The notes under the pieces: generated by a model | Seen by the model: only the letters and a program-made list of their open reading frames with translations | What the model was told of the DNA's origin: nothing | Database searches by the model: none | Made by a program: the position numbers and the translations under genes | Assembly (NCBI GenBank): GCA_028280505.1 | Contig: JANQLO010000055.1 | Location: 1-53,520 of the forward strand | Direction: 5' to 3' | DNA length: 53,520 nucleotides | Origin: Chromatiales bacterium | Lineage (GTDB): Bacteria; Pseudomonadota; Gammaproteobacteria; Chromatiales; Chromatiaceae | In this document: piece after piece, positions 3,260 through 22,762 of the stretch | Layout of the letters: every line of letters begins with the position of its first letter | How positions within the stretch are numbered: position 1 is the first letter of the stretch

Positions 3260-3587
3260 GGCAAAGAGCGGGTAATTGGCCTGCATCGTTCCTTTAAATA
3301 TTTGCCAACTTGCTTCCGACGCGCATTCGCCAAAGCCGCCGAGCAAAGAAATGTTTGTCCAAGGGCGTTCTGACGCGCTTGGATAGACCCCTAGCTGGAA
3401 CGGGAAAGGCTCGGCATGCTCGCTTGAGCGTGGGCTGCCCAAGTTGCAGAACACGCTTCTTAATCGACAGGGCAGATGAAAACAGCACATAAGGCATTAA
3501 ATATTATAATATTTCGCAATCTGCGATAGGCTGGTAAAAGTGTTGCGGTCTCGTAGAAGGGAATCCGTATGAATAACTACCGATGCG
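3260..3587. other. Spacer between qatD and the helicase gene, no supported gene
   Basis: The sequence has no reading frame with a ribosome site or recognisable product. A 60-codon frame from 3310 ends with a zinc-ribbon-like CPSCRTRF but lacks a second cysteine pair. The segment 3480-3580 is A/T-rich and is the likely promoter region for the helicase gene. A 26-codon frame from ATG 3569, preceded by GAAGGGA, could act as a short leader. Confidence 0.5.
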
Positions 3588-6500
3588 GTGCGCAAATTGG
3601 GGGAGAGTCAAGGAGATTTCAGGCCACGCTGCCTTTCCATCGACCTTGAAGTAGGCGTCAAGGATAATCGCATCCACGAGTTTGCTGCGGTCCGCGGTGA
3701 TGACGGGAAGTCTTTGGTCCGTGGGAACCAAAACCTCCATGCCGGATTGAAAAAGCTGGATGCGTTTGCTGAAGGTTTGACATTCCTGCTGGGGCATAAT
3801 CTCATTGCTTTCGATCTACCACATCTTGCGGCAGTGGAACCGGATCTAGCGATCTTGGCGTGGCCTGCGGTCGATACGCTATGGCTGAATCCGTTGGCGT
3901 TTCCGCGAAATCCTTACCATCGCCTCGTCAAGCATTACCAGGATGGCCAGCTCCACCGTGGACGGCTCAATGATCCAGAGCTTGATGCGCAGCTCACGCT
4001 GGATGTCTTTCATGACCAGCGCGATGCGTTTGTTGAGCTTGCGCGCGAAGCGCCGGATCTTCTGCTTGCTTGGCATTGGCTCACGACGGGCAATGATGCC
4101 GTAACCGGCCTCAACGCTTTCTTCACATCTATACGTCAGGCGCCGCGACCGACCGATGATGCCGGTATTCATGCCGTCGAGAACTACCTGCTGGATCGTT
4201 GCTGTGTGACCGCCGCACGTGAAGCCCTGGCCGATGTCGGGGTACACGCTTGGCCGCTGGCCTATGCCATGGCTTGGCTCTCGGTCGCCGGCGGGAACTC
4301 CGTAATGCCGCCTTGGGTGTGGCACCAGTTTCCAGAAGCCGGTCAATGGGTACGAAAGCTCAGAGATACCCCCTGCGAGAATCCCGAATGCGAATGGTGC
4401 CGAGAGCGCCATGACGCTCGAAAGGAGCTTAAACGTTGGTTTGGGTTCAATGATTTTCGCCCTGAGCCTGTAGACGACCAGGGCATGCCCCTACAGGGTG
4501 TCATCGTAGAAGCGGCGATGCGTGGTGAGCACGTATTGGGGGTGCTGCCAACCGGTACCGGAAAATCGTTGTGCTACCAGATTCCGGCGCTCTCTCGTTA
4601 CGAGAAGACGGGTGCGCTGACACTGGTTATCTCGCCGCTCGTAGCACTAATGGCGGATCAGATGGCGGGATTAGAGGCGCGTGGCATCACGGCCTGTGCG
4701 GCGCTCAACGGCTTATTGTCGATGCCCGAAAGAGCGGATGTGCTGGACTGTGTGCGCTTGGGCGACATCGGCATTCTGATTGTCTCTCCTGAACAACTCC
4801 GCAGTCCTACGTTGCGGAAGGCGTTAGCCCAACGGGAAGTCGGCGCCTGGGTGCTGGATGAGGCACATTGTATTTCCAAGTGGGGTCATGATTTTCGGCC
4901 TGATTACCGGTATGTCGGACGATTCATCAAAGAGTGGTCCGGGGAGGGAGATGTGGCGCCGGTGCTTTGTCTTACCGCAACCGCCAAACCCGACGTGATC
5001 GCCGATATTCGTGGTCATTTTCGGGACAAAGTGGGCGTTGATCTCAAGGCTTTCGATGGGGGTGCGAATCGCCACAATCTCGAATTCGATGTCATTCCAA
5101 CCACCCGGGTCGCCAAGTACGAGGATATCTATCGCTTGCTGGAAACGGGTTTACCAGAGGAGCAGGCCGGAGGGGCGATCGTCTACTGCGCAACGCGCAA
5201 GCAAACAGAAGAGGTTTCAGCGTTTTTGCGAGAAAAGGGACTGGCGGCAGACGGCTTCCATGCCGGACTGCCTCCTGAGACGAAGAAGACGACTCAGGAG
5301 GCGTTCATCAAGGGGGCGCTGCGTGTCATCGCTGCCACCAACGCCTTCGGAATGGGCATCGACAAACCCGATGTGCGTTTGGTGATTCATGCCGATATCC
5401 CCGGCTCCTTGGAAAATTACCTGCAAGAAGCCGGAAGGGCTGGGCGGGACCGTGAAGCAGCCCGATGTGTGCTGCTCTACTCGATTGACGATGTCGAGCG
5501 GCAGTTCAGTATGTCGGCGCACTCCAGACTGTCTCACCGGAGCATCGTCGCGATCCTCAAGTCTCTCCGGCGTTTGGGTAGCAAAAAGCGCCAGGGTGAT
5601 GAGATCGTGGCGACGGCCGGGGAGATACTCGCCGAGGAGGAAGGCGTATTCGAGCGCGACTCTGCAACGGACGATACCCGGGTTAGAACGGCATTACTCT
5701 GGCTGGAGGAGTCACATCTTCTGACCCGAGAGGAAAACCGGGTCCAGGTTTTTCCGTCGTCTTTGCGCGTCCCTACCACCGCGGAGGCGGAGAAACGTCT
5801 CGCAAAGGCGGACATGGTCAAAGAGTACAAGGAGCAACTGATTGAACTCGTTGACTGTTTGATCGATGCCGATGCGGATGAAGGGATCTCCACAGACGAG
5901 TTAATGGGGGCGACAGGGCTCACCGCTGATGGTGTGCGTCGCGCTTTGTACGATCTCGAGCATTTCGGAATTGCGACCAACGATACGGCACTGACCGCTT
6001 ACGTACATCATGGTGTGGCGCGATCATCGAAAAACCGATTCGAAGACGCTGAAGGGCTTGAATCGGAGTTGATCGGCTTGCTGCGTCAAGATGCACCGGA
6101 CTTGAGTAAAGGCGAGGCCTCAGTCTTCCATCTTCGTCAGGCGACGCAACGTCTAAAGGACCAAGGACATCAAGACGCACTCCCGGAGAGAGTCTGGCGA
6201 CTGCTCCGAAGTCTCTCGATGGATGGCCGGAGCGATGCAGGAGGCTTGGGCAGTATCCGCCTCAAGAAGCTCGACCGAGAGACGGTGCAAGTCACCCTGC
6301 AACGGGATTGGCGAGACCTCGACACGACGGCGAAGTTGCGTCGAGCTGGCGCGGCGGCCTTGCTGAACCAGCTTTTGTCGACGTTGCCAGAGGGCGCCAG
6401 AGGCAACGATCTACTGGCCGAAACCACTCTGGGCAAGCTCCGCCAGGCGATCGATGAAGACCTCCCCTTGCGATCGGCCAACATCAGAGATCCGGCGAAA

Positions 6501-8711: not shown

Positions 8712-8728
8712 AACACACACTTGAAGGA

Positions 8729-8749
8729 GGGTTCGAATCTCCCGAACCC
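8729..8749. terminator. Stem-loop between convergent genes
   Basis: GGGTTCG (8729-8735) pairs perfectly with CGAACCC (8743-8749) around a 7-base loop. It sits just after the helicase stop codon and just past the end of the convergent AlpA-like gene. There is no T-run, so termination is only a guess. Confidence 0.35.
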
Positions 8750-8757
8750 CGTGGCTA

Positions 8758-8934
8758 CTACAATCCGACTAACTCTGCGATCGCTTTATCTGCCTCATCC
8801 TCCGGGGTGACGTTGCGATTTCCGAGCTTCTTCGGCTTGGGAAGCTTCCCGTCGCGACGCAGGTGCCAGATCGTCATCTCTGAGCAGCCGCCGAGTTTCT
8901 GCCGGAGCTGCTTGTCGGTTATCAGTCGGAACAT
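8758..8934 (-). CDS. Small AlpA/MerR-type DNA-binding protein
   Basis: This 58-residue protein opens MFRLITDKQLRQKLGGCSEM and then TIWHLRRDGKLPKPKKLGNR. That is the helix-turn-helix plus wing pattern of AlpA-type excisionases and small MerR-superfamily regulators, including the typical short GKLPKP turn. AGGAG lies 7 bases before ATG 8934, and the frame ends at TAG 8758. AlpA-type proteins control excision or integrase genes of islands and prophages. Its place 220 bp from the candidate attachment repeat at 9154 fits that job, although no integrase is seen in the window. The usual tryptophan or arginine following the wing is absent, so a plain regulator is possible. Confidence 0.6.
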   Translation of the reverse strand: MFRLITDKQLRQKLGGCSEMTIWHLRRDGKLPKPKKLGNRNVTPEDEADKAIAELVGL

Positions 8935-9153
8935 CCGCCATCTCCTGCTATATCAGGTGCTAACGGTTTGTGATCCTACCGGTGGCGCTGGAAAGCGCCC
9001 CGGAAAACCAATTCATCGGGCGTCGTGGGTCTCAAATTGTGGATCTCTTGAGAAAAATCGACAGTGAATGTGAAGTGATCTGCCGGTCACTGGGTCTCCG
9101 TCGATGCCTTTGCAACGGAATCGAGGTAGTCCGCCCAGCATTGCATCATCCGC

Positions 9154-9196
9154 TGAGTTTTCAGAGGCCTGAAACTCGATGTTGGTGGAGGCGGCG
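9154..9196. repeat. Candidate attachment site, copy of the ssrA 3' region
   Basis: These 43 bases match 22351-22394 in the same orientation. Both start TGAGTTTTCA, run through an AGGCC-centred inverted repeat and end in TGGTGGAGGCGGCG, which is the reverse complement of the tmRNA 3' terminus including CCA. This copy is imperfect (the central palindrome differs), and the match fades after AATC at about 9202. Such a repeat is expected at the far end of an island integrated in the 3' end of ssrA. The surrounding 8935-9307 stretch has no supported gene. Confidence 0.65.
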
Positions 9197-9307
9197 ACAA
9201 TCACATCGCCTTATGAATCAATACGTTGCGCTGCTAAATGCCAAAAATGCCCCCATAGATACTTCCAGATGACTTCGCCTGGCTTTTTGGCTAGATTCCG
9301 GCGGATT

Positions 9308-10654
9308 TTAACGCTCTTCAGGCGCTCGCCATGCGCTGAATCGCTCCAGCGCATCAGTGCTGCCGATCAGGGCGCGCGCCCGTCGAAGTCGCTCTATTGT
9401 GCGCTCCCGTTGCTCGTCAGGTAAATCCTGCGCGCGGCGTTCGGCGTCCGTGAAGAACTCCTCGAGTCGCTTGGCTTCCGCCCAGGCATCGATGACCTGG
9501 AGCAGGTCCTCTTTGCTGTCCTTCAACGCCTTCGCGGCCTGCCGCGCCTCCTCTTCGCGACGCCAGCGCTCATACTCAGCTTCCCGGCGTTTTCGTTCGA
9601 TCTCCGCCTGGCGCTCCCCCTCCTCGACGAGCCGCGCGATTTCGACCGTGGCCTTCTCCAGCTCCCGAACAATGGATGGGATCCTGCCGGACAGCTCCCG
9701 GGACGGTGTCTCTCGCCATTGCTGGGTCCAATCTGCCCGCGGGTACGGCGAGTAAGCCTGGAGACAGAGGCGCCCGGTCGGGAAGTCGTGGGTGCTCGTC
9801 CAGCCATAGTCGTGAACGTATCGGCCACGGCGCTTGGGCACGTAGTCGGGCAGCCGAACGTACTCGCCGTTCACATACCGGGCCTCGGCGGCCTCTGACA
9901 TCTCGATGACGGTGAGGCCGATTGCCACGGTGCCGATGTAGACCACCGTGCAGCGCATCGGTGATCACAGATTGTTATGGTGGTGACCTTTCCCAGGGTT
10001 CTCCCGCTCGTCGACATCCGCGCGATGGAATCGCTCCGAATTTGGCGCGATGACCACGCGATGGTCCCTGGCCTCGAAGGCCAGGAAAAGTTCGTTCGCA
10101 AAGGCGATAGCCTTGTCCAACCCGGTCTGGGTGACGGCCAGGTCGACGAGCAGTTTCTTGGTCGGCTTGAGGTATTTGCCGTGCCAGGAGAGACGACCTG
10201 CCTCGAAGAGCGGCTTGGCTCCGCTGACCAGTGGATGCCGATCCGGAAGCTGCCGCTTTACCGTGCGCTTCCCTCGTGGCCGCTGGTCGGGTGGCTTCGG
10301 GAGGGATCGGGCCCGCTTCGGCAAGGCTCCGTCCCGCGTCCACTCGAGCGGGTCGCCCGGACGCGGTTCGGGGAGCGGCGGTTGCTTCGGCGCTTTGCCG
10401 ACCGCCAGCTTCGCCCAATAGCCGCGCTCCGGCCGGGGTACGTTGAGCAGCGTGCAGACGCGGGCCATGTAGCTGGACGAGACGCCGAACCGGGCCGCCA
10501 CCCGGAGCATGGGCTCGGACCAGACCATCTCGTATAGCGCTTCTCGACTGACCGGGCCCTCGCTGCTGTCGGTCAGCGACGCCGGTACCTGCGTTGTATC
10601 TTGTTCCTCTATCACGATGCTCGACTGACCCCAGATCCGCCCGCCAGCGCTCAT
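9308..10654 (-). pseudogene. Unknown gene interrupted by an in-frame TGA
   Basis: Two long frames (10654 to 9965 and 9958 to 9308) are in the same phase and separated only by TGA at 9965-9967, where the text reads HHHNNL-stop-SPMRCTVVYIG. The simplest reading is one protein of about 448 residues with a nonsense change, possibly Trp to stop. The N-terminal part carries a helix-turn-helix-like segment (REALYEMVWSEPMLRVAARF, then GVSSSYMARVC). The C-terminal part is a long charged coiled coil (about residues 330-420, rich in ERKRREAEYERWRREEEA). A DNA-associated role is a guess. It is divergent from the AbiE pair and shares a 74-bp intergenic region with it. ATG 10654 is a weak start choice; GTG 10615 and TTG 10687 are alternatives. 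Confidence 0.65.
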
Positions 10655-10679
10655 TGAGGTGGCGCGCCGCGCGGATAGA

Positions 10680-10728
10680 TGATACAAATCCTCGGTATCT
10701 AGGGTCTACACATCGAGTATTTGTATCA
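10680..10728. promoter_or_regulatory. Palindromic operator of the AbiE operon
   Basis: TGATACAAATCCTCG (10680-10694) and CGAGTATTTGTATCA (10714-10728) are inverted repeats matching at 14 of 15 positions with a 19-base spacer. The right arm touches the ATG of abiEi. AbiEi-type antitoxins are known to bind inverted repeats in their own promoter and repress it cooperatively, so this is the expected operator. It could also govern the divergent interrupted gene. Confidence 0.7.
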
Positions 10729-11346
10729 ATGGCAAAGCCCCGAACGCAGCGTGAGCTCGCCCAAACCCTGCTGAAGAAGCAGGGAATCATGCGCCTGCTC
10801 GAGCTGCGCGAGGCCGGCGTGACCGCGGCGACAATGAGTCGTATGGAGCGGGCCGGCGAAGTCATCCGCCTGTCGCGGGGCGTCTATCAGCTGCCAGATG
10901 CCGACCTGGACCCCAATCACAGCCTGGCGGAGGCCGCGAAGCGGGTGCCCAAGGGCATCGTGTGTCTCGTCTCGGCTCTGGCATTCCTTGGCCTGACCGA
11001 CCAGCTACCTCCGAAAGTCTGGATGGCGATCGGACCCAAGGACTGGGCGCCGCAGCGCAGCGGTACGGGCATCCGTATTGTGCGTTTCACAGACAGCCTG
11101 CTGAGGGAAGGCATCGAGACGCACGTGATCGAAGGCGTGTCGGTGAAAGTCTTCGGCGTGGCCAAGACGGTGGCAGATTGCTTCCGACATCGCGGGAAAG
11201 TGGGCCAGTCTGTCGCGATCGAGGGGCTCCAGGAGGCGCTGAGGCAACGCAAGGCGACTCCGGCGGAAATTGCTCGTCAAGCCGAGAAGGGCGGGGTGTC
11301 CACAGTCGTGCGGCCGTATCTCGAGGCACTGACTGCCAATGCCTAG
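10729..11346 (+). CDS. abiEi: AbiEi-type antitoxin (type IV)
   Basis: This 205-residue protein has an N-terminal winged helix-turn-helix (TLLKKQGIMRLLELREAGVT, then AATMSRMERAGEVIRLSRGVYQL, residues about 10-52). It is followed by the AbiEi antitoxin domain (LAEAAKRVPKGIVCLVSALA onward, with VFGVAKTVADCFRHRGKVG near 142-160). In the AbiE abortive-infection system this protein counteracts the nucleotidyltransferase toxin and represses its own operon. ATG 10729 is chosen because the family N-terminus starts there and it abuts the operator; no good ribosome site is seen, so the transcript may be leaderless. It overlaps the next gene by 8 bases, indicating coupled translation. Confidence 0.9.
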   Translation: MAKPRTQRELAQTLLKKQGIMRLLELREAGVTAATMSRMERAGEVIRLSRGVYQLPDADLDPNHSLAEAAKRVPKGIVCLVSALAFLGLTDQLPPKVWMAIGPKDWAPQRSGTGIRIVRFTDSLLREGIETHVIEGVSVKVFGVAKTVADCFRHRGKVGQSVAIEGLQEALRQRKATPAEIARQAEKGGVSTVVRPYLEALTANA

Positions 11347-12214
11347 GGAGATCAGAAACGTCGGCGCCTCCGTGCGGGCACGTCTGCAGAATCTCTCCCG
11401 AGAAACGGGACAGAGTTTCGAGCTGATATTCACCCGCTATGCGTTGGAACGCCTGCTTTACCGTCTCAGCACGTCGGCCTTCTCGGACCGATTCGTGCTC
11501 AAGGGCGCGATGCTGCTGACGAGCTGGTTTGCGGACCCACACCGGGCTACTCGTGATCTCGACCTGTTGGGGTTCGGCGATCCAAGCCCGGAGGCGATGG
11601 TCGCAGCATTCAAGGAGATTCTCGCGATAGACGTCGAGGATGGTGTCGAATTCGATTCGAACGCGGTACGTGTCGACCAGATCCGGGAGGAACTCGAGTA
11701 CGGCGGACTGCGGCTGCGCACGACCGCATCGATCAGTGGTGCCCGTATCGCTGTAACAGTCGACGTCGCATTCGGAGACGCGTTGGAGCCGGGTGCCGAG
11801 GTCATCGACTACCCGTGCATGCTGGACCTTCCCGCACCTCGCCTGCGCGCGTATGCCCGCGAAACGGTGATTGCCGAGAAATTCCAGGCCATGGTGGCGC
11901 TTGGGCGCGCGAACAGCCGGATGAAGGACTTCTATGACATTTGGCTCCTCAGCCAGTCGTTTCCGTTCGACGACGACCGGCTCGCCCGCGCAATCGCCGC
12001 GACCTTCGAACGGCGCGAGACCGAGATCCCGGCCGACCTGCCTGATGCTCTTACCGCGGCCTTCGCCGAGGATGAGCAGAAGCAGCGTCAGTGGAATGCT
12101 TTTCTGGAGAACGTCGCGCTTCGTCCTGGCAGCCTGGGCGATGTGGTCGCGATTATTGCTGAATTCATCATGCCGCACGCAATTGCATCAGCGAAGATGG
12201 GCAAAGGCCACTGA
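11339..12214 (+). CDS. abiEii: AbiEii-type nucleotidyltransferase toxin
   Basis: This 291-residue protein is the toxin partner of AbiEi. The nucleotidyltransferase core is visible as FVLKGAMLLTSWF followed by RATRDLDLLGFG (catalytic DLD near residues 71-75). The downstream lysine motif is in RETVIAEKFQAMVALGRANS, followed by RMKDFYDIWLL (residues about 175-205), the conserved AbiEii signature. MenT-type relatives transfer nucleotides to tRNA 3' ends; that activity here is inferred. All motifs look intact. The gene starts inside the antitoxin gene (ATG 11339) and ends 40 bp before the STAND gene, which may be read from the same promoter. Confidence 0.92.
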   Translation: MPREIRNVGASVRARLQNLSRETGQSFELIFTRYALERLLYRLSTSAFSDRFVLKGAMLLTSWFADPHRATRDLDLLGFGDPSPEAMVAAFKEILAIDVEDGVEFDSNAVRVDQIREELEYGGLRLRTTASISGARIAVTVDVAFGDALEPGAEVIDYPCMLDLPAPRLRAYARETVIAEKFQAMVALGRANSRMKDFYDIWLLSQSFPFDDDRLARAIAATFERRETEIPADLPDALTAAFAEDEQKQRQWNAFLENVALRPGSLGDVVAIIAEFIMPHAIASAKMGKGH

Positions 12215-12254
12215 TGGAGCGAACAGATTTTCACTGACGATATCGGAGACTTGA

Positions 12255-15200
12255 TTGGTTCCACCTAGGAAAACATCGAAGGCGACCCGGTCAACCGACC
12301 AGGGGAACCGTGATCCTGCGACCCTGCGGTCGACGAGCGGTGCCGGTTTCGAGTTCGAGGACCTAATTGCTGCGTGGCAACTGGTGAAGGCCCTCTCCGG
12401 CGAGCAAGTGCCCGGGGTCGGAGGTGTCGGGGCGCAGCTCCAAGCGCAGGTCTCAACCCTCGGCTGGCGTGTCGATGATCTGCTGGTGACTAGCGAAGCC
12501 GAAGGAGGGCCGCGCCGGCTTGCCATCTCCGCAAAGGGCAATCAACAAGTCAGCGCTTCCAGCCTGCCGTCCGACTTCGTGACACGGGCTTGGGAGCAGT
12601 GGCGTGACCCACACGGGCCGTTCAATTCCGCCGTCGATGGGTTGGCGCTGGTGACGCGCGGGACGCTCCCGGCGTTTCAGGCGACCTGGGTAGAGGTGAA
12701 GAACGCGTGCAGCGGATCCGACGCCGCGCTCGTGATGGGCCGCATTCGGAGCAACTCCAAGCAGTCGCGCGTCTTCGATAGCGTCATGAATCCGGGCGAT
12801 GGCGCAAGCGAGGGTGAAACGATCGAACTCATACGCCGGCTCCATGTGCTTCCAGTGGACCTGCAGTTCGAGCCTTCCGAGACCGCAAACCAGTCAATCG
12901 CCTCGTGCCGGCGCCTACTGGAGTCTGGTGCCATCAGCGAGGCCGAAGCTCTTTGGCAGGAGCTCCTGAAGGTAGCAGCCGACGTGCGGTTGCGGAAGGG
13001 AACCATCACGATTCCGGATCTCTGGTCCCGTCTGCGGGGCCAATTCGGGCTTCGCCAGCAACCAGATTTCGAGCGAGATTGGGAGTCGCTCTCCAACATC
13101 ACGTCGGACCACAAGGCTCGCATAGAGACGGAACTGCCTTCGGGCTATGCCGTCCCGCGAACCGCGGAGAAAGAATCGTTCCGGACCGCCGTCGCGGACC
13201 ACGACGTGATTGTGGTGTTCGGCGAGTCAGGCTGCGGAAAGTCGGCCTTAGTGAAGTCCGTGTTGAACAACGAGTTCCCATCTTGGACCCAGGTGTGGTT
13301 CGGTCCTGAAGAGCTCGAGAAAGCGTTGAGCGGAGCGCGGCGGGGAAGCCTGTCGCTCCAGCACGAGCTGTCGCGGGTCCTTAATGCAGCGGCTACACGG
13401 AACAACGTCCTCATCATCGACTCGGCGGAGCGCATTGCAGCGACCGAGTTCGGGGTCATTCGTCAGCTACTCGATGCCATTCTCACGGCTTCAGCTCAGG
13501 CCGAGGCAGCGTGGCGTGTAGTCATCGTGACTCAGATCCATGCATGGGTCGAAGGCGAAGCGATGATGCTCGGTGGGCGAAGGGCCAAGCTCGTCGAGTT
13601 AGGACAACTCACCAGCGGCGATGTGAAACTGGCGCTTTTGCCTTCGCCGGCCCTGGGCTGGCTGGTCGGCCATGACGACACCATCGCGGCGCTGACGAAT
13701 CTCCGGACCTTGGGTTGGGTCATCAGGGCGGGCTCTGCGATGGGCTCGAATGCCAGCGGACTCGCGTCGCACACCGCCATCGCGGATAGGCTGTGGAAGT
13801 ACTGGACCCAGGACCGATCCGACGTTCAGGGGCTCATGATGCGCCTTGCGCAGCGCGATGCATCCTTCGAGCGCAGCTTTGCGCTGACCAACCTGGATCC
13901 TGCCGATGCTGCGACCTTCGACAAGAGGCCGCCAGAATTTCCGTTGAGGAAGAACGATCGGACGAATCGGGTGGAGTTCGAACACGATCTCGCCGCGGAT
14001 TGGGCGCGCTTTCAGTATCTGAAGCAGGTTTGGACAGACACGCAGCAATGGGCAACGCTTGCCGGGAATCCGCTCTGGACGAACGCGCTGCGGATGCTGG
14101 GTCAGTTCCTCCTGCGGCAGTCCGACGATGGCGGGACAGCGTGGGACACAGCCTTCGATGCGGCCGTCTCCGCGAAGAACGAGCTATCAGGCGACATCCT
14201 GCTCGACGCACTTTGTCTCGACCCGGAAGCCGAGCGCTTCCTGACTGACCGACTCGAGTTGCTGCTCGCGGATCACGCCAAGGTCTTAACGCGGCTGCTC
14301 CAGCGTTTCCACCACATCGCGACGGTTCCGACTGGCGGCACGATGGCGCCAACCTCCGTCCTCGGGCTCTACCTGGATGCTCAAATCCGCTCCATTGTCT
14401 TTGGCCGGTGGCCACCGCTCCTACGTTTCCTCATCGCGCAGCGCGAGCAACTGCACGGGCTTGTCTCGCCCGCCCTGGCGATGGTCATCGAAACCTGGCT
14501 CACGAAGACGCCGCGAAAGCTGAGTAACAGAGCGCCGCTGCCGTTCCGGCGCGAGATGGCCGAGATGGCACTCGCCATGGCCCGGACTGTGCAGGTCGAG
14601 AAAGGCCATGGCGTCATGTACGTGACCCGGGAGTACTCGCTGTACACAGCCCCTCTGGCTGGCGCTGCAGATCTCCCGGAAGAAGTCGGCAACTGGGCGT
14701 TGGAGTTGGCTGGGCGACGCAAGGTCGACGCGGATGTCGAGCGGCGGATAGCCGAGGTCAGGCGAGAGCAAGCCTTGGCGCACGCCAAGCGTTTGGAGAC
14801 GGACCCGGAGTACAAGAAGCGGCATGAGCAGCGGCGGCAAATGCCGATCTCGATCGGCTCGTTCCGTGAGCGCCTACCGCCCTGGCCTCTCGGGGCAAGC
14901 CACAGGGTCGACATGGACTTCCGGAAAGCATGCTTCAAGCAGAATGGCATTCAGCCGTTGATGCGTGCTAAGCCAGAGTTGGCAGCGGAAATTCTGCTTG
15001 CGCTCATCATCGAGGACCAGCCGGAACGGGAATATGAGTCCGCCCGCCTTGAGGTGAACCTGGGCCTCGACTTCCCGGAAGACGCTTACCCAACCGCCTT
15101 CTGGAAGAGTCCGTTCTCTCTTTTCCTGCAAATCGCGCCCGATGTTGCCCTTGGTGCGCTCATAGCACTAGTGAACTTCTCGACGGAACGATGGATCGCC

Positions 15201-17519
15201 GAGGTGGTGGGCAGCGAGGGTGAGCCGCCGGGCGTGACACTGCAGTTCGAAGATGGGTCGAACAAGACCTTCCCAGGCTGGGGACATGTGTTCAACTGGC
15301 CACAGTCCAACTCGATGCACAACGGAAATCTCTTCTGCGCGCTTGACGCGCTTGAGCGATGGCTGACGTTCAAACTCGATGCCGGCGAGGACATAACCAT
15401 GTTCGTCGAGCGGCTGCTGCGCGAGGGAAGTTCCGCAGCACTCGTAAGTGTCCTCGTCAACGTGGCCAAGTATCGGCCGTCACTGCTCACCGGCTCGCTC
15501 GGCCCGCTTCTGACGTTTCCGAACCTGTTCTATTGGGACAGCGTCCGTGTCGAGCAGATCGGCTACAACTTCATCGGTTGGAGCTGGCTTCAGGGCGGTG
15601 AGGTGATGTTCGACTTTGCCCGCAATTGGGTGCTCGCCCCCCATCGCCAGAAGAAGTTCTTGGATGTCGTGGTCGAACTTCTGCTTGCCGACGACGACGT
15701 CGCCGGGCGTCTTCAAGCGCTGGTGCCGATATGGACGTTGCCTGAAGACCCGAAGGAAGCGCTTGAGTTTAAGCTGATTTATGCTGCCCTTGACCGTGCG
15801 AATTATCGGACGGTGACGGATCCCGAGACCGGGGCAGAGGTCAAGCGCTTTGAATGTCCCGGTGAACTGAGCTTTGAGGTCCAGTCGTGGCAAAGCGAGA
15901 AGGCGCAGCCGCTCACGTACCTTCTCATGCCGGACCGCTGCGAGCGGCGCCTTCAAGCCGGGCAGGCGCTGACCGAAGAAGAGGCGGTGTATCTGTACGA
16001 CCTAATCAAGACCTGCGAGGCCGGCACGGAAGACGATGAGGCCGGTAAATCCAAGTGCAGGCTCGCGGCAGCAGCCACGTTGGTCGTCCTAGGCGAGGCG
16101 TGGTTGGCGAAGACCCCCGAGGCGCAGACCCACTCCCTTGCAGTTGTCCGTGCCGCGCTTTCCGGGATCCCATCGACGAGTGGCGAGATTCGCAACCAGC
16201 GCATGGGGAGCATGCGCGACGAACTGAAGTTCGCTGCTCACGCCGTGATGCACCTGTGGTTGTCCGGTGACGCCGGCCCTGAATGGGAGGCCGATGTCCT
16301 TCGCCTCCTGACGAGCGGCGATATGCGCGCTTTGGGGGCGGTGGTCGGGATTGCCCACGCCAACCGGGACCGGTTAGGGCCCACGTGGTGGCGGCTTCTG
16401 CAGGCCGGGGTCCTGTGGTCCGGCCTGATCCTCCTCGCGCCCCATCACGGAGACGAAGAAGACACTGAACGTGGGTGGATCAACTGGCTCGCGCGGCTGC
16501 GGCGCTTTCCGTTGCGGGGCAAGGACGCGAACGCCGACAGTTTCGACTTCAAACGGATCGCGGCCGGCTGTGGCCGGCTGGAGTTCTACAGGAAGATGCG
16601 TCTCTACACGTCCGGTGAGAGGACCTGGCGCGGAAAGCCGGAGCGCCGACCGGGCGTGTCGCTTGACGGGCATGTCCTCGAAGTAGTGTTCGGTTGGCTC
16701 ATCCACGGCGCCGGAACGGGCGACCGGTCGTTGGACACGCGCCTTGCTCTCCGCATCTGGGACTACGACGCTTCGCGCGCGAAGGCCCGGGCCAAGACGG
16801 ATAAGAGCGGCGAGTACGACCTGCCGACGCAGAACTTGGGCTACGATGCCCTCCTGAAGGTCGCCGCCTTGTCGCTCGCCGCGCCCGAAAATGAGGCCCG
16901 GGCTGTTTGGGAGCCTGTTCTCGCGCACGGGCCGGCTGCGCATGTCGCGCTGCAGCACTTTATCCAGGGTCTCTATCTACGGCTCAGGGAACTTGATGAC
17001 CCCGCAGCATTTGAGCCCGTCTGGCGAGCGGTCGCAGAGTACGGGCTGGCGGCCGATTGGTCGAAGCCGGGCCTATGGTTTTACGGCGAGCGGCTGATCT
17101 GCGACCTGCTCGGGTTCGGGAACGAAGATGCCCTCGCGCGGCTAGCGCCGGGTAGTGCTCTCCGGATGAGGGATGTCTACGAGCTGTGGGCGCAAGTGCA
17201 TCTGGCTCGTGATGAAGAGTGCGTGACCCGTTTCTCGCACTTTCTCACGACGACCTTCGGTGGACCGCTTCGTCTGGACGGCCTTCGTTGGATCGCCGCA
17301 ATGCTGAAGGCGGAGAACCCGTCCAATCACTGGTATCGCGAGGGCACAGGTAACGCTCTGGTCGAACTCGTGGCGGCGGCCTTGAGTTCGGACGCCCAGG
17401 CGCTGTCCAAAGATGCCGAGGCGCGGCAAGCGCTGGTCGAGGTCGCGGCGGCGCTGGCCGCCAAGAACATACCCGCCGCCCTTGCCCTGCAGGAGCGCAT
17501 CAAGCTCCTGCGACGTTGA
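12255..17519 (+). CDS. Avs-like STAND NTPase with N-terminal Cap4-like nuclease
   Basis: This large protein has 1754 residues. Residues about 28-135 resemble the Cap4-type PD-(D/E)XK nuclease domain: GAGFEFEDLIAAWQLVKALS, then GWRVDDLLV (acidic metal ligand near 72), RLAISAKGNQQV (catalytic lysine near 94) and FVTRAWEQW. A P-loop follows, with Walker A FGESGCGKSALVKS near 322-335 and Walker B NVLIIDSAER near 388. The rest (about 500-1754) is helical and probably repeat-built, as expected for a sensor. This layout fits STAND anti-phage proteins in which the C-terminal sensor binds a phage protein and the nuclease then destroys DNA. The start is TTG 12255 with a weak CGGAGA site. No adjacent partner is obvious. 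Assignment to a particular Avs type is not possible from reading alone. Confidence 0.72.
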   Translation: MVPPRKTSKATRSTDQGNRDPATLRSTSGAGFEFEDLIAAWQLVKALSGEQVPGVGGVGAQLQAQVSTLGWRVDDLLVTSEAEGGPRRLAISAKGNQQVSASSLPSDFVTRAWEQWRDPHGPFNSAVDGLALVTRGTLPAFQATWVEVKNACSGSDAALVMGRIRSNSKQSRVFDSVMNPGDGASEGETIELIRRLHVLPVDLQFEPSETANQSIASCRRLLESGAISEAEALWQELLKVAADVRLRKGTITIPDLWSRLRGQFGLRQQPDFERDWESLSNITSDHKARIETELPSGYAVPRTAEKESFRTAVADHDVIVVFGESGCGKSALVKSVLNNEFPSWTQVWFGPEELEKALSGARRGSLSLQHELSRVLNAAATRNNVLIIDSAERIAATEFGVIRQLLDAILTASAQAEAAWRVVIVTQIHAWVEGEAMMLGGRRAKLVELGQLTSGDVKLALLPSPALGWLVGHDDTIAALTNLRTLGWVIRAGSAMGSNASGLASHTAIADRLWKYWTQDRSDVQGLMMRLAQRDASFERSFALTNLDPADAATFDKRPPEFPLRKNDRTNRVEFEHDLAADWARFQYLKQVWTDTQQWATLAGNPLWTNALRMLGQFLLRQSDDGGTAWDTAFDAAVSAKNELSGDILLDALCLDPEAERFLTDRLELLLADHAKVLTRLLQRFHHIATVPTGGTMAPTSVLGLYLDAQIRSIVFGRWPPLLRFLIAQREQLHGLVSPALAMVIETWLTKTPRKLSNRAPLPFRREMAEMALAMARTVQVEKGHGVMYVTREYSLYTAPLAGAADLPEEVGNWALELAGRRKVDADVERRIAEVRREQALAHAKRLETDPEYKKRHEQRRQMPISIGSFRERLPPWPLGASHRVDMDFRKACFKQNGIQPLMRAKPELAAEILLALIIEDQPEREYESARLEVNLGLDFPEDAYPTAFWKSPFSLFLQIAPDVALGALIALVNFSTERWIAEVVGSEGEPPGVTLQFEDGSNKTFPGWGHVFNWPQSNSMHNGNLFCALDALERWLTFKLDAGEDITMFVERLLREGSSAALVSVLVNVAKYRPSLLTGSLGPLLTFPNLFYWDSVRVEQIGYNFIGWSWLQGGEVMFDFARNWVLAPHRQKKFLDVVVELLLADDDVAGRLQALVPIWTLPEDPKEALEFKLIYAALDRANYRTVTDPETGAEVKRFECPGELSFEVQSWQSEKAQPLTYLLMPDRCERRLQAGQALTEEEAVYLYDLIKTCEAGTEDDEAGKSKCRLAAAATLVVLGEAWLAKTPEAQTHSLAVVRAALSGIPSTSGEIRNQRMGSMRDELKFAAHAVMHLWLSGDAGPEWEADVLRLLTSGDMRALGAVVGIAHANRDRLGPTWWRLLQAGVLWSGLILLAPHHGDEEDTERGWINWLARLRRFPLRGKDANADSFDFKRIAAGCGRLEFYRKMRLYTSGERTWRGKPERRPGVSLDGHVLEVVFGWLIHGAGTGDRSLDTRLALRIWDYDASRAKARAKTDKSGEYDLPTQNLGYDALLKVAALSLAAPENEARAVWEPVLAHGPAAHVALQHFIQGLYLRLRELDDPAAFEPVWRAVAEYGLAADWSKPGLWFYGERLICDLLGFGNEDALARLAPGSALRMRDVYELWAQVHLARDEECVTRFSHFLTTTFGGPLRLDGLRWIAAMLKAENPSNHWYREGTGNALVELVAAALSSDAQALSKDAEARQALVEVAAALAAKNIPAALALQERIKLLRR

Positions 17520-17591
17520 GCGTCAACCATCTTGGCCGCCCGCCGTGCATCGAATCGCTGTAACGAGTCGGGGCAAGCAGACAAAGGCAGG

Positions 17592-19862
17592 TTAGTCGAC
17601 CGGAGCGGCCACATCTCTTGGCGTCCAGTGCTTCGCTGTCCGCATGTCAATCCAGTCGCAATGCAGCTCCAGGCGGATCTCTTCTTCACCGGTAGGAACC
17701 AAAAATTGTTCCAGCGCCTGCGGGATCGGGAAGTAGGTGCCGTCGAACATCTCTTGTAGCGGCTGCTCGAGTTGGATTGCACCTTCGGCCCTGGCAACGC
17801 CGTTGAGGTTCGCGACCACAACTTCATCGACCCTGATTTCATACTGAAACGCCGCGCTGACGGCATCCGATGCGACGTACATGATCTTGTTGCCTGCCCA
17901 GACGACACCCCGGCTGTCACACTCTGGAAGTAGGTCGCCGTATGCCCTGAATGCTGTGTCAGGGAGGCGAATGTAGTATCCGGCCAAGTTCGTCGTGTGC
18001 TGCTCGTCCAAGACGTGAATGATACGAGGTGGCTTCCCTGGTGGGCGGTCCTGAGGAGGCTGAGCCGGTCTGTCCCCTACGTTGACGACATGGATGTCCG
18101 ATCTTGTGACTACTTGCTTCTTGCCACCCTTGCGGACGACCCCGATATCGTCCTTGAGAAGTATCCAGAGCTCGGAGCGGCGCTTCGCGAGCATCTCAAG
18201 ATTGAGCGCACCGTCCCCAAAAAAACGCGGGCTGAACTTCTTAAGTGATGGACCGAGATACTCGCGGCAAAAGGTTCCAATCAGCGAGTAGAGAAGCTGC
18301 GTATAGCCAAGGTCCTCGAGTTTTGCGATCTCCTGGTGGCGAACGTCCACAAAGATGTCGATCGCCTGACTGCCACCATGCTCCCTAACAAAAACTGGAA
18401 TGTCTTCGGTCAGCTTCCCAGGTATAAGTCGGAAGTTCGCGACCTCATATGACTTCGAAATGCTCAACTCCAATTCGCTCAGGAAAACGCGCTCGAATCG
18501 GCTCAGTTCTGCGTAGCGCTCTGCACAATCAATCATCCCGTCGAACGGCTTCGCTCCGCAGTATTGCTGCAAGTACCGCGTCTCCGCGTCCCTGCGATAC
18601 CTGTCCGCTGATAAAAGCACGACGATGTGGCCGCGCGCCTGCATGATCTGATTGAGGGCCTGTTTCTGCGCCGTGCCGAAGAACACGCCGACGCCGCCTT
18701 GTTCAGCCCGTTTGCGAATGGTGCCGAGCAAGGTTTCGGTTCCATCGGCTAGGTTGACTTTGACATGAGAAAGCCTGTCGGTCAGGCCTTGCCGAACGAT
18801 ATAGCGAAAGACGCGCGTGTGCTGCGCGATCCGTTCCGGGTTCTCCAGAACCGCTTCAACGGCGATGCGCTCCATTGCCTGCGTAATCCGGCCCAGCAGG
18901 CTGGTGGTGTCACCATCAAGCGAGTCACGCCCGGCCGTTGGAACGAAGCGGTCGCAATCAAGCCGCCCCGATACTCCAATCGTCGAGCCGACCTGCGTCG
19001 CGCAAAGCTTGAAGCCGCGCTTGAACACATCGATCGGACCGTTTTCGAATCGCAAGTGACCCACGAGATTGACGGCTTCGCCGTCAATGCTCAGACCTTC
19101 AATCGATGCCGTCAACGCGTGGCCGCGATCTTCGTACAGACGCCCGGTGATGGTCAGATTGCCGCTGTGCCAGACCTGCGATCCACCGGAGATTTCGGTG
19201 AGATTTTCCCGGTCTTCGAGGTCGGAAAGGTTTCGCTGTGAGACTTTGTCGCCATTGAAATAGATTGCAGTCGGTACGTACCGGACGAAATCCCGCAAAT
19301 AGTTCCGAAGCTGATCTATGTTCGGCGTTTCTCGCAAATATCCGACGACGAGCGTTCCGCGCGGCGCGGCATCGTTTGAGCTTCGCATCGTGACATCAGG
19401 AATGGCGCCCCCCGCGTTATCAATATCCTTCTCGGAGAGCCGTGTCAGCGTGCCTTCAGCCGCGTCTTCGGTTTGTGAAGTGACCTCCAGGGCTTCGCAC
19501 ACGCCAAAGTTTGCAAAGCCGCCGATGCCGAACGTACCGACGCAGCCTGCGGCGAGTGCTTCCTGCGTTCTCTTGCCGCTTGCCCCGATCGTCCAAAAGA
19601 AGTTCCTTAGGTCATCGGCCGACATTCCGGTGCCGTTGTCGCGGACGCGGATGACCCGATCCTCGACCGTAATATCTATCCGGTACCCGGCATCACTGGA
19701 TTGCATTTGATCCCGGTAGGCCTGGATGCGAACAGCATCGACGGCGTTCTGGACGTTCTCGCGAATGAAAGCGAGCGGCGTCTCGTAGATCTGCTTCGAG
19801 ATAATCCGCAGCACGCTCGGAAAATCGATTCCCGCCTTAAATGACTTATGCTCGTCAGCCAC
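17592..19862 (-). CDS. HSP90-like (Bergerat-fold) ATPase, defence-island type
   Basis: This protein has 756 residues from GTG 19862, preceded by AGAGAGGT; a longer frame from ATG 19928 would overlap the upstream gene by 74 bases. The GHKL ATP site is intact: ENVQNAVDA (residues 35-43, Glu35 and Asn39), DNGTGM (75-80) and GTFGIGG near 113. A middle segment (GVGVFFGTAQKQALNQIMQA, then RGHIVVLLSADRYRRDAETR) recalls the HSP90 middle and C-terminal region. The last 200 residues are unlike housekeeping HtpG. The start lies inside the last codons of the metallophosphoesterase gene (8-base overlap), so the two are translated together. It is probably a partner or switch for the phosphoesterase, which is inference. 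It converges on the STAND gene with a 72-bp gap. Confidence 0.82.
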   Translation of the reverse strand: MADEHKSFKAGIDFPSVLRIISKQIYETPLAFIRENVQNAVDAVRIQAYRDQMQSSDAGYRIDITVEDRVIRVRDNGTGMSADDLRNFFWTIGASGKRTQEALAAGCVGTFGIGGFANFGVCEALEVTSQTEDAAEGTLTRLSEKDIDNAGGAIPDVTMRSSNDAAPRGTLVVGYLRETPNIDQLRNYLRDFVRYVPTAIYFNGDKVSQRNLSDLEDRENLTEISGGSQVWHSGNLTITGRLYEDRGHALTASIEGLSIDGEAVNLVGHLRFENGPIDVFKRGFKLCATQVGSTIGVSGRLDCDRFVPTAGRDSLDGDTTSLLGRITQAMERIAVEAVLENPERIAQHTRVFRYIVRQGLTDRLSHVKVNLADGTETLLGTIRKRAEQGGVGVFFGTAQKQALNQIMQARGHIVVLLSADRYRRDAETRYLQQYCGAKPFDGMIDCAERYAELSRFERVFLSELELSISKSYEVANFRLIPGKLTEDIPVFVREHGGSQAIDIFVDVRHQEIAKLEDLGYTQLLYSLIGTFCREYLGPSLKKFSPRFFGDGALNLEMLAKRRSELWILLKDDIGVVRKGGKKQVVTRSDIHVVNVGDRPAQPPQDRPPGKPPRIIHVLDEQHTTNLAGYYIRLPDTAFRAYGDLLPECDSRGVVWAGNKIMYVASDAVSAAFQYEIRVDEVVVANLNGVARAEGAIQLEQPLQEMFDGTYFPIPQALEQFLVPTGEEEIRLELHCDWIDMRTAKHWTPRDVAAPVD

Positions 19863-21648
19863 GTTTACCTCTCTTCCCCAGTCTTTGCTCCATCCGCTCG
19901 CGAAACGCTCTGTCCCCCGTAGATTCAACTATCCGATGGCCGATCTGAGAAAAGTACTCTGCGTGTTGTTCGGGAAATACGTCGATCGCTCGGATAACAA
20001 TGCTCTTCGCACTATCCGTGTCGCCCGTTTCTAGTAAAAGATTCGCAAGATTGCCAAAATCGGTAGGGACTGCATCCGGACCGGCGCAGAGCGCGCGATA
20101 GAGTTCAATTGTCTGCACCTTGTCCGCCGGCACTTCTGAATGTGCAAGAGCGAGCGCCAACATTCTTCGAGCATGAATCGAAAGGTCGGCATCAGCGATA
20201 TCGACGTATCGAACCGCATGCGCGTGCAGTTCCTTCCATTCATGATTGCGGGCAAGCTCATCTAGAAGCGACACCGTGTGAGCAAAGCTGCCCGATGGTT
20301 CTGTGTTCGCCAAAGACCGCGCTTCCTGCTCCTGTACCTGCAGGCGGGTTGCTAATGAGGGATCCTGATTGCTGAGCTCAATGAGCATGGCACCATAGGT
20401 ACAGATTGACGCTCCATGTCGCGCCAAAATCTGCTGAACCGGCAAGCGGTCATATAGAGCGCGGAGCACATTCCGGAAGGCTATAAAGTGTGAGGTCCTC
20501 TCCTTCAGCGGGCTGTCGTCCTGACGACTAAGGACAGCAAAAGAGCCGAAGACGTACCCATTCTGTGCGGGTATCGGAAGCTCTGCTTTTTGGTCGAGAA
20601 GCAGGGCGGCAAGATATGCTGCAAGACTTCGCAGCTCTGCGCGATAGGCGCAGAGCTCTGCCATCAGCTCTCCTACATTACATGTATTCTTTGGGGCGAC
20701 TTCAAAAGGGAAATTCTCACGTGACTCAGTTGAAAACGATCCGACCTGTGGCTCGTAGTGAAGCGTTGTGACTTGCCGTTTCGCATTCAAGATATCTATC
20801 GTGATAATCGAGAACGTGTTTTGCGATTGACGGGTCTCAAACGACGCTCCTGCAGCCAGAACAAGGCAGCCGGTGCCGCTCTGGCCTACAGCCCTCACTT
20901 CCGGGAGATGCAAATGTCCGCAATGGAAAAACTGAGAATCACGCTCGATGCGCCCCTGCACGGGTGATCGGTCAAATTCCCGCAGTAGGTGGCATGGATG
21001 ATGGGCCATGCTTATGACAACATGTGGCTGGATAGCTCCGGTCTGCGTCAGCGACACGGCATTGATAACCTGACGTTCACCAATCAGAAGATTGCCGTGG
21101 TCGCTCGCGCCACCTTCGGAAGCCCACGCCGAGTCCAGCCCGACGATTACAAGATGTATGTCGTCGATGACAAGGCGGCTTATGTAAGCGAGTCCGTCGG
21201 GCGTCGACGTTCTCTCTTGATTTGAAAAAAAGTCATTCTGGAACTGGCGGTAACTCTGTTCTCTTTCTAACAACGTTGCGAGATCATCGTCGGGAGCGAG
21301 AACCTCGTCGACGAGCTGTTGGTTTACAAGCGACGACCGAGCTCCCTTAAAGCACAGCTTTTGGCGAGAGCGGTCGATGTCGTGATTCCCTGGCACACAG
21401 AACACCCGTTCTGTCGGGACGCCCGATGCATTGCAAAGGGCGTCAAAGAAATCCCTTACAAGCGCGTATTCTTCAGCCTTTCCAGAATAGGCGAGATCGC
21501 CTGTCGTCAGGATGAGGTCGGGTGCGACGCCATCTTTGCGCATCTGGGCTACTCGCTCACACATCGCCTTCAGCACCACATCTTGAGACCAGGCGTCGCG
21601 CACGCTCATATGGATGTCGGACACGTGGAGCCAGGAGATGGGGCGCAC
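19855..21648 (-). CDS. Calcineurin-like metallophosphoesterase with helical repeat tail
   Basis: This protein has 597 residues. Residues 1-270 are a metallophosphoesterase with all metal motifs: DIH (11-13), GDLAYSG (50-56), GNHD (87-90), AHHP and GHLHLPE near 245. The C-terminal 300 residues are helical and TPR-like (for example AVRYVDIADADLSIHARRM and NLANLLLETGDTDSAKSIVI), suggesting a protein-binding scaffold. The family cleaves phosphomonoesters or phosphodiesters; nuclease or cyclic nucleotide substrates are both possible here. It is the first gene of a two-gene operon with the HSP90-like ATPase, overlapping it by 8 bases. The pair sits among defence genes on the ssrA island. I do not recognise it as a named system. 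Confidence 0.85.
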   Translation of the reverse strand: MRPISWLHVSDIHMSVRDAWSQDVVLKAMCERVAQMRKDGVAPDLILTTGDLAYSGKAEEYALVRDFFDALCNASGVPTERVFCVPGNHDIDRSRQKLCFKGARSSLVNQQLVDEVLAPDDDLATLLEREQSYRQFQNDFFSNQERTSTPDGLAYISRLVIDDIHLVIVGLDSAWASEGGASDHGNLLIGERQVINAVSLTQTGAIQPHVVISMAHHPCHLLREFDRSPVQGRIERDSQFFHCGHLHLPEVRAVGQSGTGCLVLAAGASFETRQSQNTFSIITIDILNAKRQVTTLHYEPQVGSFSTESRENFPFEVAPKNTCNVGELMAELCAYRAELRSLAAYLAALLLDQKAELPIPAQNGYVFGSFAVLSRQDDSPLKERTSHFIAFRNVLRALYDRLPVQQILARHGASICTYGAMLIELSNQDPSLATRLQVQEQEARSLANTEPSGSFAHTVSLLDELARNHEWKELHAHAVRYVDIADADLSIHARRMLALALAHSEVPADKVQTIELYRALCAGPDAVPTDFGNLANLLLETGDTDSAKSIVIRAIDVFPEQHAEYFSQIGHRIVESTGDRAFRERMEQRLGKRGKRG

Positions 21649-21811
21649 TCTTACCTCCGTTCGTCAGGGGAGAGCCCGGGTATCCACCGGACGGCGAGTG
21701 GAGTGCTTGGCAGATCAACCATTCGGTCGCGCGGGGCTTCTACTCGTGTTTGGATTATCGCCATGGTCATCATTGCTCGTCGATTCAATTTGCTCGTCGT
21801 GATCGGCGGGG

Positions 21812-22204
21812 CTAAACCACCTCCCCCTTGAACACGACCACCCCGCAAATCGTCGCATTCGAGTTCACTTCGATGATCCGGTTTGGCCAGTCCGGATTCA
21901 GCGCCTTCAAGTACTGATGGCCTTCTTCGATGATCAGTTGCTTGAAAGTCGCTTCCTGGGAGTCTTCCAAACGAACCACGACGTAGCGGCCGCTGACCGG
22001 GGCGACCTGGGGATCCACGAAGATGAGCTCGCCGTCGTGGAACTTAGGTTCCATGCTCTCACCGCGCACCCGCAGGACAAACGTGTCCGCGCTGCACCGG
22101 ACCGGGCATGGGAGCAGATCCTCGGCGTCGCCGAGTGCGAAGTCGCTGGCGATTTCGGTCCATTCGCCGACCTTCGCGTTCTTGATTTCCTGGATCGTGA
22201 GCAT
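21812..22204 (-). CDS. S24 (LexA/UmuD-like) peptidase domain protein without HTH
   Basis: This protein has 130 residues. The S24 catalytic Ser/Lys pair is present: Ser50 in RGESMEPKFHDGELIFVDP and Lys88 in ATFKQL. Phage CI-type repressors share this half, but the N-terminal helix-turn-helix is missing and no Ala-Gly cleavage pair precedes Ser50. In size it resembles UmuD, although the wording is repressor-like. It could be a truncated island repressor, or a RecA-responsive protein that acts by pairing with another repressor. ATG 22204 follows an AGGAAA site and sits directly under a striking palindromic operator. It lies 163 bp before the phosphoesterase gene on the same strand, so it may lead that operon. 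Confidence 0.75.
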   Translation of the reverse strand: MLTIQEIKNAKVGEWTEIASDFALGDAEDLLPCPVRCSADTFVLRVRGESMEPKFHDGELIFVDPQVAPVSGRYVVVRLEDSQEATFKQLIIEEGHQYLKALNPDWPNRIIEVNSNATICGVVVFKGEVV

Positions 22205-22350: not shown

Positions 22351-22394
22351 TGAGTTTTCAAGGCCTTGAAAACTCGGTGATGGTGGAGGCGGCG
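22351..22394. repeat. Attachment core at the ssrA 3' end
   Basis: This is the partner of the 9154-9196 copy. It contains a perfect 24-bp palindrome (22352-22375, GAGTTTTCAAGG then its complement) followed by the last 14 bases of ssrA (22381-22394). The 3' end of ssrA is a well-known integration target for islands and prophages. Confidence 0.65.
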
Positions 22395-22762
22395 GGAATC
22401 GAACCCGCGTCCGCAAGTCCTCTGCCTTCGGTTCTACATGTTTAGTCGTGTCGATTATTTTTAACCGTACTGCCGCCCGACCGACAGGGCATACAGCACG
22501 GCGATTCCGGTAAATTTTTTAGCGATTCTGCCCCGGACGTGCTTCCTCGCGATCTTGTGAGATATGACGCCTGAATTGTTCCGAGGAACGCTGGACGCAC
22601 AAGCACGGCTCCAGTCAGACGGCTTTCTACCGGTTATTAAGCGGCGAGAGCGTAGTTGTCGTCGTTGGCAACTATAAAGTTTGCGAATGGATTAACGAGG
22701 TATTTCGCACCTCGACATGCACCTCGGGTTTCGCTACCCACGTCGAAAGCCGTGTCGCCCCC
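22381..22762 (-). ncRNA. ssrA: tmRNA
   Basis: The 382-nt RNA begins GGGGGCGACACGGC (from 22762) and ends CGCCTCCACCA (to 22381). The 5' GGGGGCG pairs with 3' CGCCTCC to form the acceptor stem, and the T-arm reads GGGTTCGATTCCC. The resume frame is at about 22637-22671: GCC AAC GAC GAC AAC TAC GCT CTC GCC GCT TAA TAA. It encodes the tag ANDDNYALAA followed by a double stop. tmRNA frees stalled ribosomes and marks the unfinished protein for proteolysis. Its partner smpB lies 51 bp upstream on the same strand. The CCA is encoded, and the 3' end also serves as the island attachment site. Confidence 0.97.

Follow-up and report, generated by a model that had tools for sequence, protein, structure and literature searches.

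A conserved metallophosphoesterase and Hsp90-like ATPase gene pair, probably a mobile system of anti-phage defence

Do two overlapping genes in a Chromatiales bacterium, one encoding a metallophosphoesterase (MPE) and the other an Hsp90-like GHKL ATPase, belong to a unit that recurs in other genomes, and what might such a unit do? The genes lie on contig JANQLO010000055.1 (assembly GCA_028280505.1), the whole 53,520-nucleotide stretch of which is referred to here as the window, and had been singled out from the sequence as a candidate new defence pair (hereafter the original prediction). We found the pairing to be conserved, and consider that the two genes probably form a mobile conflict system, with anti-phage defence its most likely role, in which the Hsp90-type ATPase would control an exchangeable effector. 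The features of the pair in the window were as follows:

19855..21648, minus strand: MPE gene, 597 aa, proposed effector; GTG start at 21646-21648, TGA stop at 19855-19857
17592..19862, minus strand: Hsp90-like GHKL ATPase gene, 756 aa, proposed regulator or sensor; GTG start at 19860-19862
19855..19862, minus strand: 8-base overlap of the two genes, holding the MPE TGA (19855-19857) and the ATPase GTG (19860-19862)
19868..19873, minus strand: Shine-Dalgarno sequence GAGAGG of the ATPase gene, read from the sequence, within the MPE gene and 5 nt from the ATPase start
21654..21658, minus strand: Shine-Dalgarno sequence GGAGG of the MPE gene, read from the sequence, 5 nt from the start

Gene positions, overlap and the ribosome-binding site inside the MPE gene were all as predicted. 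The raw list of open reading frames (ORFs) gave the ATPase a 778-aa frame with a TTG start, which is probably too long, and the 756-aa frame was preferred. The stretch with the pair was single copy in the source genome, and the region held two promoter-like sites (shuffles 2.0 ± 1.4) and seven terminator-like sites (shuffles 4.3 ± 2.4), neither count being informative.

A scan in which each of 84,980 species was represented by a single genome returned at least 141 relatives, the best 80 of which were kept as loci. Nine of these 80 (L006-L014) were true ATPase relatives, scoring at least 255 bits with a three-member ATPase profile, and all nine adjoined an MPE; the other 71 scored at most 75 bits with that profile and were HtpG-like, serving as controls. 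Searching plasmids with the ATPase returned four records: three near-identical Pseudomonas aeruginosa plasmids, one of which was examined (L003, where the pair is annotated 'metallophosphoesterase' and 'ATP-binding protein'), and a Rhizobium plasmid (L004) with an open frame at 8511-9983 encoding an MPE directly before the ATPase. Further members were found in two genomes of the window's family (L089 and L090), on viral contigs (L093-L095) and in a genome from the phylum of L009 (L107). Counting all loci with upstream DNA, an MPE stood directly upstream of the ATPase in 17 of 18, and the remaining one (L090) had a PNP-type nucleosidase there, whereas none of the 71 HtpG-like loci, 66 of which have at least 1.5 kb upstream, had an MPE anywhere in the DNA retrieved for them, also with two stronger MPE profiles. 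Adjacency of the two families is therefore far beyond chance, and the pairing in other genomes on which the original prediction was staked does exist. The nearest ATPase start in the 17 MPE pairs ranged from a 13-base overlap to a 3-base gap, with a 4-base overlap in 11, and pairwise distances of MPEs and ATPases were correlated across 15 pairs (rho 0.943, with 0 of 5,000 permutations as high). As no third gene within 6 kb recurred in more than two of the 18 neighbourhoods, the conserved unit is one of two genes.

Some loci were used in part. L096 and L097 (repeated as L138 and L139) begin inside the ATPase gene and were excluded from the pair count, L096 being kept in the ATPase tree; the L006 ATPase, truncated where its contig ends, entered neither that tree nor the distance test; L107 was used in the trees only, outside the alignments. 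L012, with its MPE in two pieces, was counted as MPE-paired and excluded from the MPE alignment, the MPE tree and the distance test. At this Methylobacter locus (L012:570-2029, plus strand) the MPE gene is split into two frames and the ATPase gene is open. The ATPase frames of L010 and L014 are likewise open, with one TAG counted inside the profile match in those two genomes.

What kind of ATPase is it? The window protein matched Pfam HATPase_c_3 (3.2e-10), and residues E35, N39, D75, G77, G109, G112 and G114 were invariant in all 13 aligned ATPases, in keeping with the intact GHKL ATP site that had been proposed. The GHKL superfamily is recognised by its N, G1 and G2 boxes, and both sequence and fold place the protein in the GHKL/Hsp90 superfamily. 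Its profile matched Hsp90 N domains (GRP94-like, TRAP1, Hsp82 and HtpG; best 4.8e-23, positions 4-209), and its predicted structure (mean predicted local distance difference test score, pLDDT, 71.9) matched full-length Hsp90s over about 650 columns (4.8e-23, template modelling (TM) scores 0.44 and 0.53). The Hsp90-type N domain is followed by a middle-domain-like part with a PTAGR motif invariant in 13 of 13 ATPases (R312 in the window), and then by a divergent C-terminus. In a weak profile alignment (E 0.35), PTAGR aligned with the S-R-E motif of HtpG, and R312 fell on the S-R-E arginine, which is the middle-domain catalytic arginine of Hsp90. Given the N-domain match, the full-length fold match and the PTAGR alignment, the ATPase is of Hsp90 type. 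Yet it is not HtpG, because it scored far below the cut-offs (80.6 against 455 for PRK14083, 59.6 against 371 for the HtpG model), because pair ATPases were set apart from five HtpG rows in the tree (support 100/100), and because a PF00183 search of the genome that recovered the host's own ordinary HtpG (454 bits) did not report it. Assignment as an HtpG chaperone proper was thus rejected.

The window MPE matched Pfam Metallophos (3.4e-9). Calcineurin-like metallophosphoesterases carry the motifs DxH, GD, GNH, H and GHxH, and positions D11, H13, G50-D51, G87-N88-H89-D90, H216-H217, G244-H245 and H247 were invariant in 15 of 15 aligned MPEs; D11, H13, D51, N88, H89, H216, H217, H245 and H247 we take to be the metal-site motifs of the superfamily. 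The complete metal motifs of the original prediction are thus present, and motifs and fold together make the protein a member of this superfamily. In the predicted structure (mean pLDDT 81.3), a calcineurin-like phosphoesterase domain (about residues 1-315) is followed by an all-helical C-terminal tail (about 325-591), so that an earlier description of the tail as TPR-like holds for the helices and fails for the label, with no Pfam TPR family matching at E 0.01. The top structural match was YydB in the Bacillus subtilis YydD-YydB integrative model (5.2e-17, TM 0.41 and 0.50), and behind it came solved folds of the cyclic-nucleotide phosphodiesterase Rv0805 (TM, by target length, up to 0.69), of SMPDL3A/B and GpdQ, and of the Mre11/SbcD nucleases. 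These fold matches make phosphodiester cleavage the probable chemistry, with a nucleotide or nucleic acid as substrate. The MPE also matched the PADLOC model 'Effector, Endonuclease' (5.6e-21); we take the PADLOC 'Effector' models (Endonuclease and PN-superfamily) to belong to CBASS. Among relatives of the MPE domain are DS-8 and DS-9, which the DefensePredictor paper describes as an MPE-NACHT protein and as an MPE with a HAD phosphatase, respectively; both lost defence on mutation of the catalytic residues predicted for their MPEs, and the MPE substrates are there given as unknown (PMC13092281).

Is the ATPase bound to one kind of partner? At L090 (8697-12594, minus strand) it is coupled to a 525-aa PNP_UDP_1 (nucleosidase-type) protein in place of the MPE, which matched PF01048 (1.6e-20), MTA/SAH nucleosidases (1e-18, below the cut-off) and the PADLOC model 'Effector, PN-superfamily' (1.7e-13), and had no match among plasmids at 1e-10. 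Since the L090 ATPase grouped with the window type in the ATPase tree (support 99/100) and is nonetheless partnered by a PNP-type protein, this one locus suggests that a single ATPase lineage stands with two unrelated enzymes. The MPEs linked to the Hsp90-like ATPase themselves form a long type (window, L006, L007 and L089) and a short type. For all four long-type MPEs, each of six outside MPEs, from GTPase and fused systems, outscored any short-type MPE of a pair, the window MPE scoring 79-101 bits with the six outside MPEs versus at most 55 with the short type. A single clade of Hsp90-linked MPEs was rejected with nine outside MPEs (approximately unbiased test, p-AU 8.8e-5, in a tree with long branches) and not rejected with six (p-AU 0.216). 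On these sequence comparisons we favour two sources for the MPEs, meaning that the ATPase would have taken up MPEs twice. Nine loci with related plasmid MPEs (L005 and L127-L134, from listings of 23 and 5 records) were examined as well. Four of the nine (L128, L129, L132 and L134, on conjugative plasmids) had GASH or GTPase genes in the same gene set as the MPE, at L128 behind an insertion sequence; in one of the others a protein containing an MPE was followed by a NACHT gene, and the last four encoded long fused proteins, among them the full DS-8 of L133 (1101 bits against a cut-off of 790).

The company kept by the pair at other loci bears on its role. The closest ATPase outside the window's family among those fetched (67% identical) is that of L007, from a Poribacteria metagenome-assembled genome (MAG), where the pair is nested in an Hma locus (3928-20509, plus strand) with HmaA (1e-169) upstream and HmaB (4.6e-112) and HmaC (9.3e-69) downstream, the genes sharing one strand and HmaB beginning 10 bases past the end of the ATPase gene. 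Neighbours elsewhere included an ABC-3C gene, an LmuB/DUF3732 protein and a weaker ZacB match (L010), a PtuA-like ATPase (L013), ABC-3C and DUF6088 genes (L003) and a protein with a GmrSD N-terminal domain (L089). Together with the window, defence-like neighbours were present at 6 of 18 loci, a raw count that carries no background rate and comes from neighbours scanned in part. That the two genes are a defence pair, as first proposed, is likely from the kinship with DS-8 and DS-9, these neighbours and the one Hma locus, with anti-phage activity itself being what we infer.

How might such a pair work? The mechanism that we think likeliest is that of an effector gated by an NTPase: the Hsp90-like ATPase would serve as the unchanging regulator and, cycling on ATP, would keep its partner enzyme inactive, or assemble it, before an infection signal. 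It would sense infection or loss of cell function and change conformation on that signal, and the freed or activated MPE would then cleave a phosphodiester (in a cyclic or other nucleotide, or in nucleic acid), stopping phage growth or the cell. As a guess, the helical tail of the MPE may contact the ATPase. The pairing, the effector kinship and the one effector exchange are results of the tools used, and sensing, gating and outcome are inferred from them.

In an alternative account, an unlikely one in our estimation, the Hsp90-like protein would do no more than fold, as its private chaperone, a phosphoesterase that is unstable but active by itself, with neither sensing nor gating. The Hsp90 N domain and fold agree with this, as does the tight coupling of the genes; against it, a relative in the same subclade (99/100) is coupled at one locus to an unrelated PNP fold, related MPEs are described as working fused to NACHT (DS-8), and others belong to GASH/GTPase gene sets, with no Hsp90-like gene annotated in the stretches viewed. 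The PNP partner and the MPEs linked to NACHT, GASH and GTPases therefore point to a regulatory role for the NTPase. The earlier idea of the ATPase as folder of the phosphoesterase was likewise not supported, the nucleosidase-type partner arguing for a more general role in control. A more far-reaching form of regulation, which we put forward tentatively as possible rather than probable, would devote an Hsp90-class ATPase to immunity, as a sensor or gate whose effectors (two phosphoesterase lineages and a nucleosidase) can be swapped; in such a bacterial system, Hsp90-type conformational cycling would take the place of a NACHT, STAND or GTPase switch in the control of a suicide or antiviral enzyme.

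Named hosts of the pair were Pseudomonadota, Bacteroidota, Chloroflexota, a Poribacteria MAG and an Acidimicrobiales MAG, bearing in mind that MAG contigs can be misbinned. The pair was found in the source genome only among 398 genomes of its phylum, in 3 of 210 genomes of the window's family, its own included (an order-level search covered the same 210), and in none of eight congeners; in two other groups it was found in 2 of 296 and 1 of 247 genomes, the seed genome being included in each. It is carried on conjugative plasmids and viral contigs, and serine-recombinase genes lie near it at L014 and L095. No match to the L003 ATPase was found among 50,697 phage records, a viral single-protein scan with the L088 ATPase gave no relative, and a further viral scan returned only the same five contigs already known. 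Such a rare, scattered, plasmid-borne distribution is that of a mobile accessory module. A toxin-antitoxin pair, in which a toxic MPE is neutralised by the ATPase mainly to retain mobile elements, would also agree with two genes that overlap and are carried by plasmids and viral contigs. We regard this reading as improbable, as the putative antitoxin would be a 750-aa ATPase with conserved catalytic residues that is translated second, and as DS-8 and DS-9, to which the MPE is related, function in defence against phage; it is, though, compatible with control of an effector by the ATPase in a conflict system.

Does the window itself place the pair among defence genes? Its other relevant features were:

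10594-12214, plus strand: AbiE (AbiEi and AbiEii), from family scans
From 40 bases after AbiE to 17519, plus strand: probable STAND protein in a 1754-aa frame with a TTG start; PADLOC candidate PDC-M54A 6.5e-12, Avs4 1.2e-6
2516-8711, plus strand: QatD-like TatD nuclease (6e-87), then a 1707-aa protein with RecQ-type and UvrD-type helicase parts, from family scans
21812-22204, minus strand: S24 peptidase-like protein, 130 aa (4.3e-26), 163 bases upstream of the MPE gene, between it and ssrA
22381-22762, minus strand: transfer-messenger RNA (tmRNA) gene, ssrA

Of the neighbours named in the original prediction, AbiE was confirmed near the pair and the STAND protein is plausible but scored below Pfam cut-offs. 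The two may form one transcription unit, and the QatD-like TatD gene and the RecQ-UvrD gene are possibly another defence unit. The S24 peptidase-like protein had no PADLOC match at 1e-5. At L107, an 800-aa protein (11933-14335, minus strand) is encoded in the same direction as the pair, 118 bases upstream, with an N-terminal part that is GHKL-like by eye only; it too had no PADLOC match at 1e-5. All 10 relatives searched gave a match to the ssrA-smpB region, several of them a partial one, and the DNA past the ssrA 3' end was variable, none of the window ORFs having a homologue in the stretches of four congeners and one (9308-9958, 81%) having a homologue in G508. The ssrA 3' end, of which a repeat would be expected at a second att site, was single copy in the window and in the genome, the far end possibly lying outside the window, and none of the 13 ORFs scanned to the left of ssrA encoded an integrase, one being an insertion sequence transposase. 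The ssrA island proposed for this DNA was accordingly not borne out.

These neighbours also bear on the remaining alternatives. The MPE might remove signalling nucleotides, as a ring-nuclease-like or anti-CBASS enzyme, so that the pair would tune or counter other defences rather than act on phage. The Rv0805 cyclic-nucleotide phosphodiesterase and SMPDL3A/B among the folds matched by the MPE model are in line with this, but no CBASS or type III CRISPR genes were recognised among the scanned window ORFs, and the defences that do neighbour the pair (Hma, AbiE, Septu-like and ABC-3C) do not, to our knowledge, use cyclic-nucleotide-type signals; we hold it to be very improbable. Least credible of all is a stress or metabolic pair with no defence role, for although ordinary genes stand beside some loci (an FGAR-AT gene near L009 and a threonyl-tRNA-synthetase-like gene near L014), the rare and scattered distribution, the carriage on plasmids and viral contigs and the nesting in Hma at L007 all tell against it.

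Several points nevertheless weigh against a defence system in which the ATPase controls an exchangeable effector. The nucleosidase swap is a single locus, and the count of loci with defence-like neighbours is, as said, a raw one; a PADLOC scan of 10 neighbours beside L009, L010, L014 and L107 left 7 of the 10 without a match. The defence role is drawn from MPE kinship and genomic context, and the direction of control, from ATPase to MPE, is putative. So is dimerisation of the ATPase, because the last third of its model is poor, with pLDDT mostly below 50.

What would follow if the pair is a regulator with its effector? MPE effectors have been validated in defence only recently (DS-8 and DS-9), and a compact pair offers regulator and effector in separable form, so that substrate, trigger and gating could be addressed one by one. 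The nucleosidase-type partner at L090, though one locus, leads to the prediction that the regulator works with more than one enzyme. If the proposal is true, Hsp90, familiar as a client-handling chaperone, would join the switches of bacterial immunity.

Is the pair, finally, a system that already has a name? Comparison with PADLOC (2023) and NCBIfam (2026) gave none, in agreement with the original prediction, the pairs of the window, L003 and L004 giving no more than partial matches in the MPE domain and weak ones to GHKL models. No description of the pair was found in the literature, as judged by titles and abstract openings; few subscription papers and no supplements were covered, and this is therefore weak evidence of novelty. 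The window MPE domain matched DS8_antiphage (NF053861) at 5.6e-35, but over residues 8-312 only and at 120.4 bits against a cut-off of 790, with no NACHT family at E 0.01; DS-8 is a single MPE-NACHT protein, whereas the window has two proteins, one an Hsp90-type ATPase. DS-9 also has two genes with the MPE first, and the window MPE domain matched NF053862 (DS9_1) at 1.7e-17, but with 63.5 bits against a cut-off of 420 and with an Hsp90-like protein where DS-9 has a HAD phosphatase. Mza was rejected likewise (13.8 bits against the MzaB cut-off of 850), as was Hma, since neither protein matched HmaA, HmaB or HmaC at E 0.1 and the pair merely sits among Hma genes in L007. Judged by these model scores, and by those for HtpG, the pair falls under no named system. 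The PADLOC candidate PDC-S60 shares an N-terminal MPE domain (3.9e-40 over window MPE residues 7-313), but its model has 1027 positions, of which the window MPE matches the first third alone. Plasmid gene sets with GASH and GTPase genes also place an MPE ahead of NTPase-linked genes, and the window MPE scored 79-86 bits with four of their MPEs; they differ in having GASH and GTPase genes where the window has the Hsp90-like ATPase. With the Hsp90 chaperones (HtpG, TRAP1 and Hsc82) the ATPase shares N-domain sequence, whole-chain fold and GHKL residues, but it lies below the Hsp90 model cut-offs and its C-terminus is divergent. VcSduA, a Shedu protein with a GHKL domain, is similar in that its authors propose that the GHKL ATPase controls an effector, but it is one protein with a fused PD-(D/E)xK nuclease (PMC12137116). 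Overall, the pair looks like the defence systems that join an NTPase to an MPE, with a regulator that we did not find described for such a role in the literature searched.

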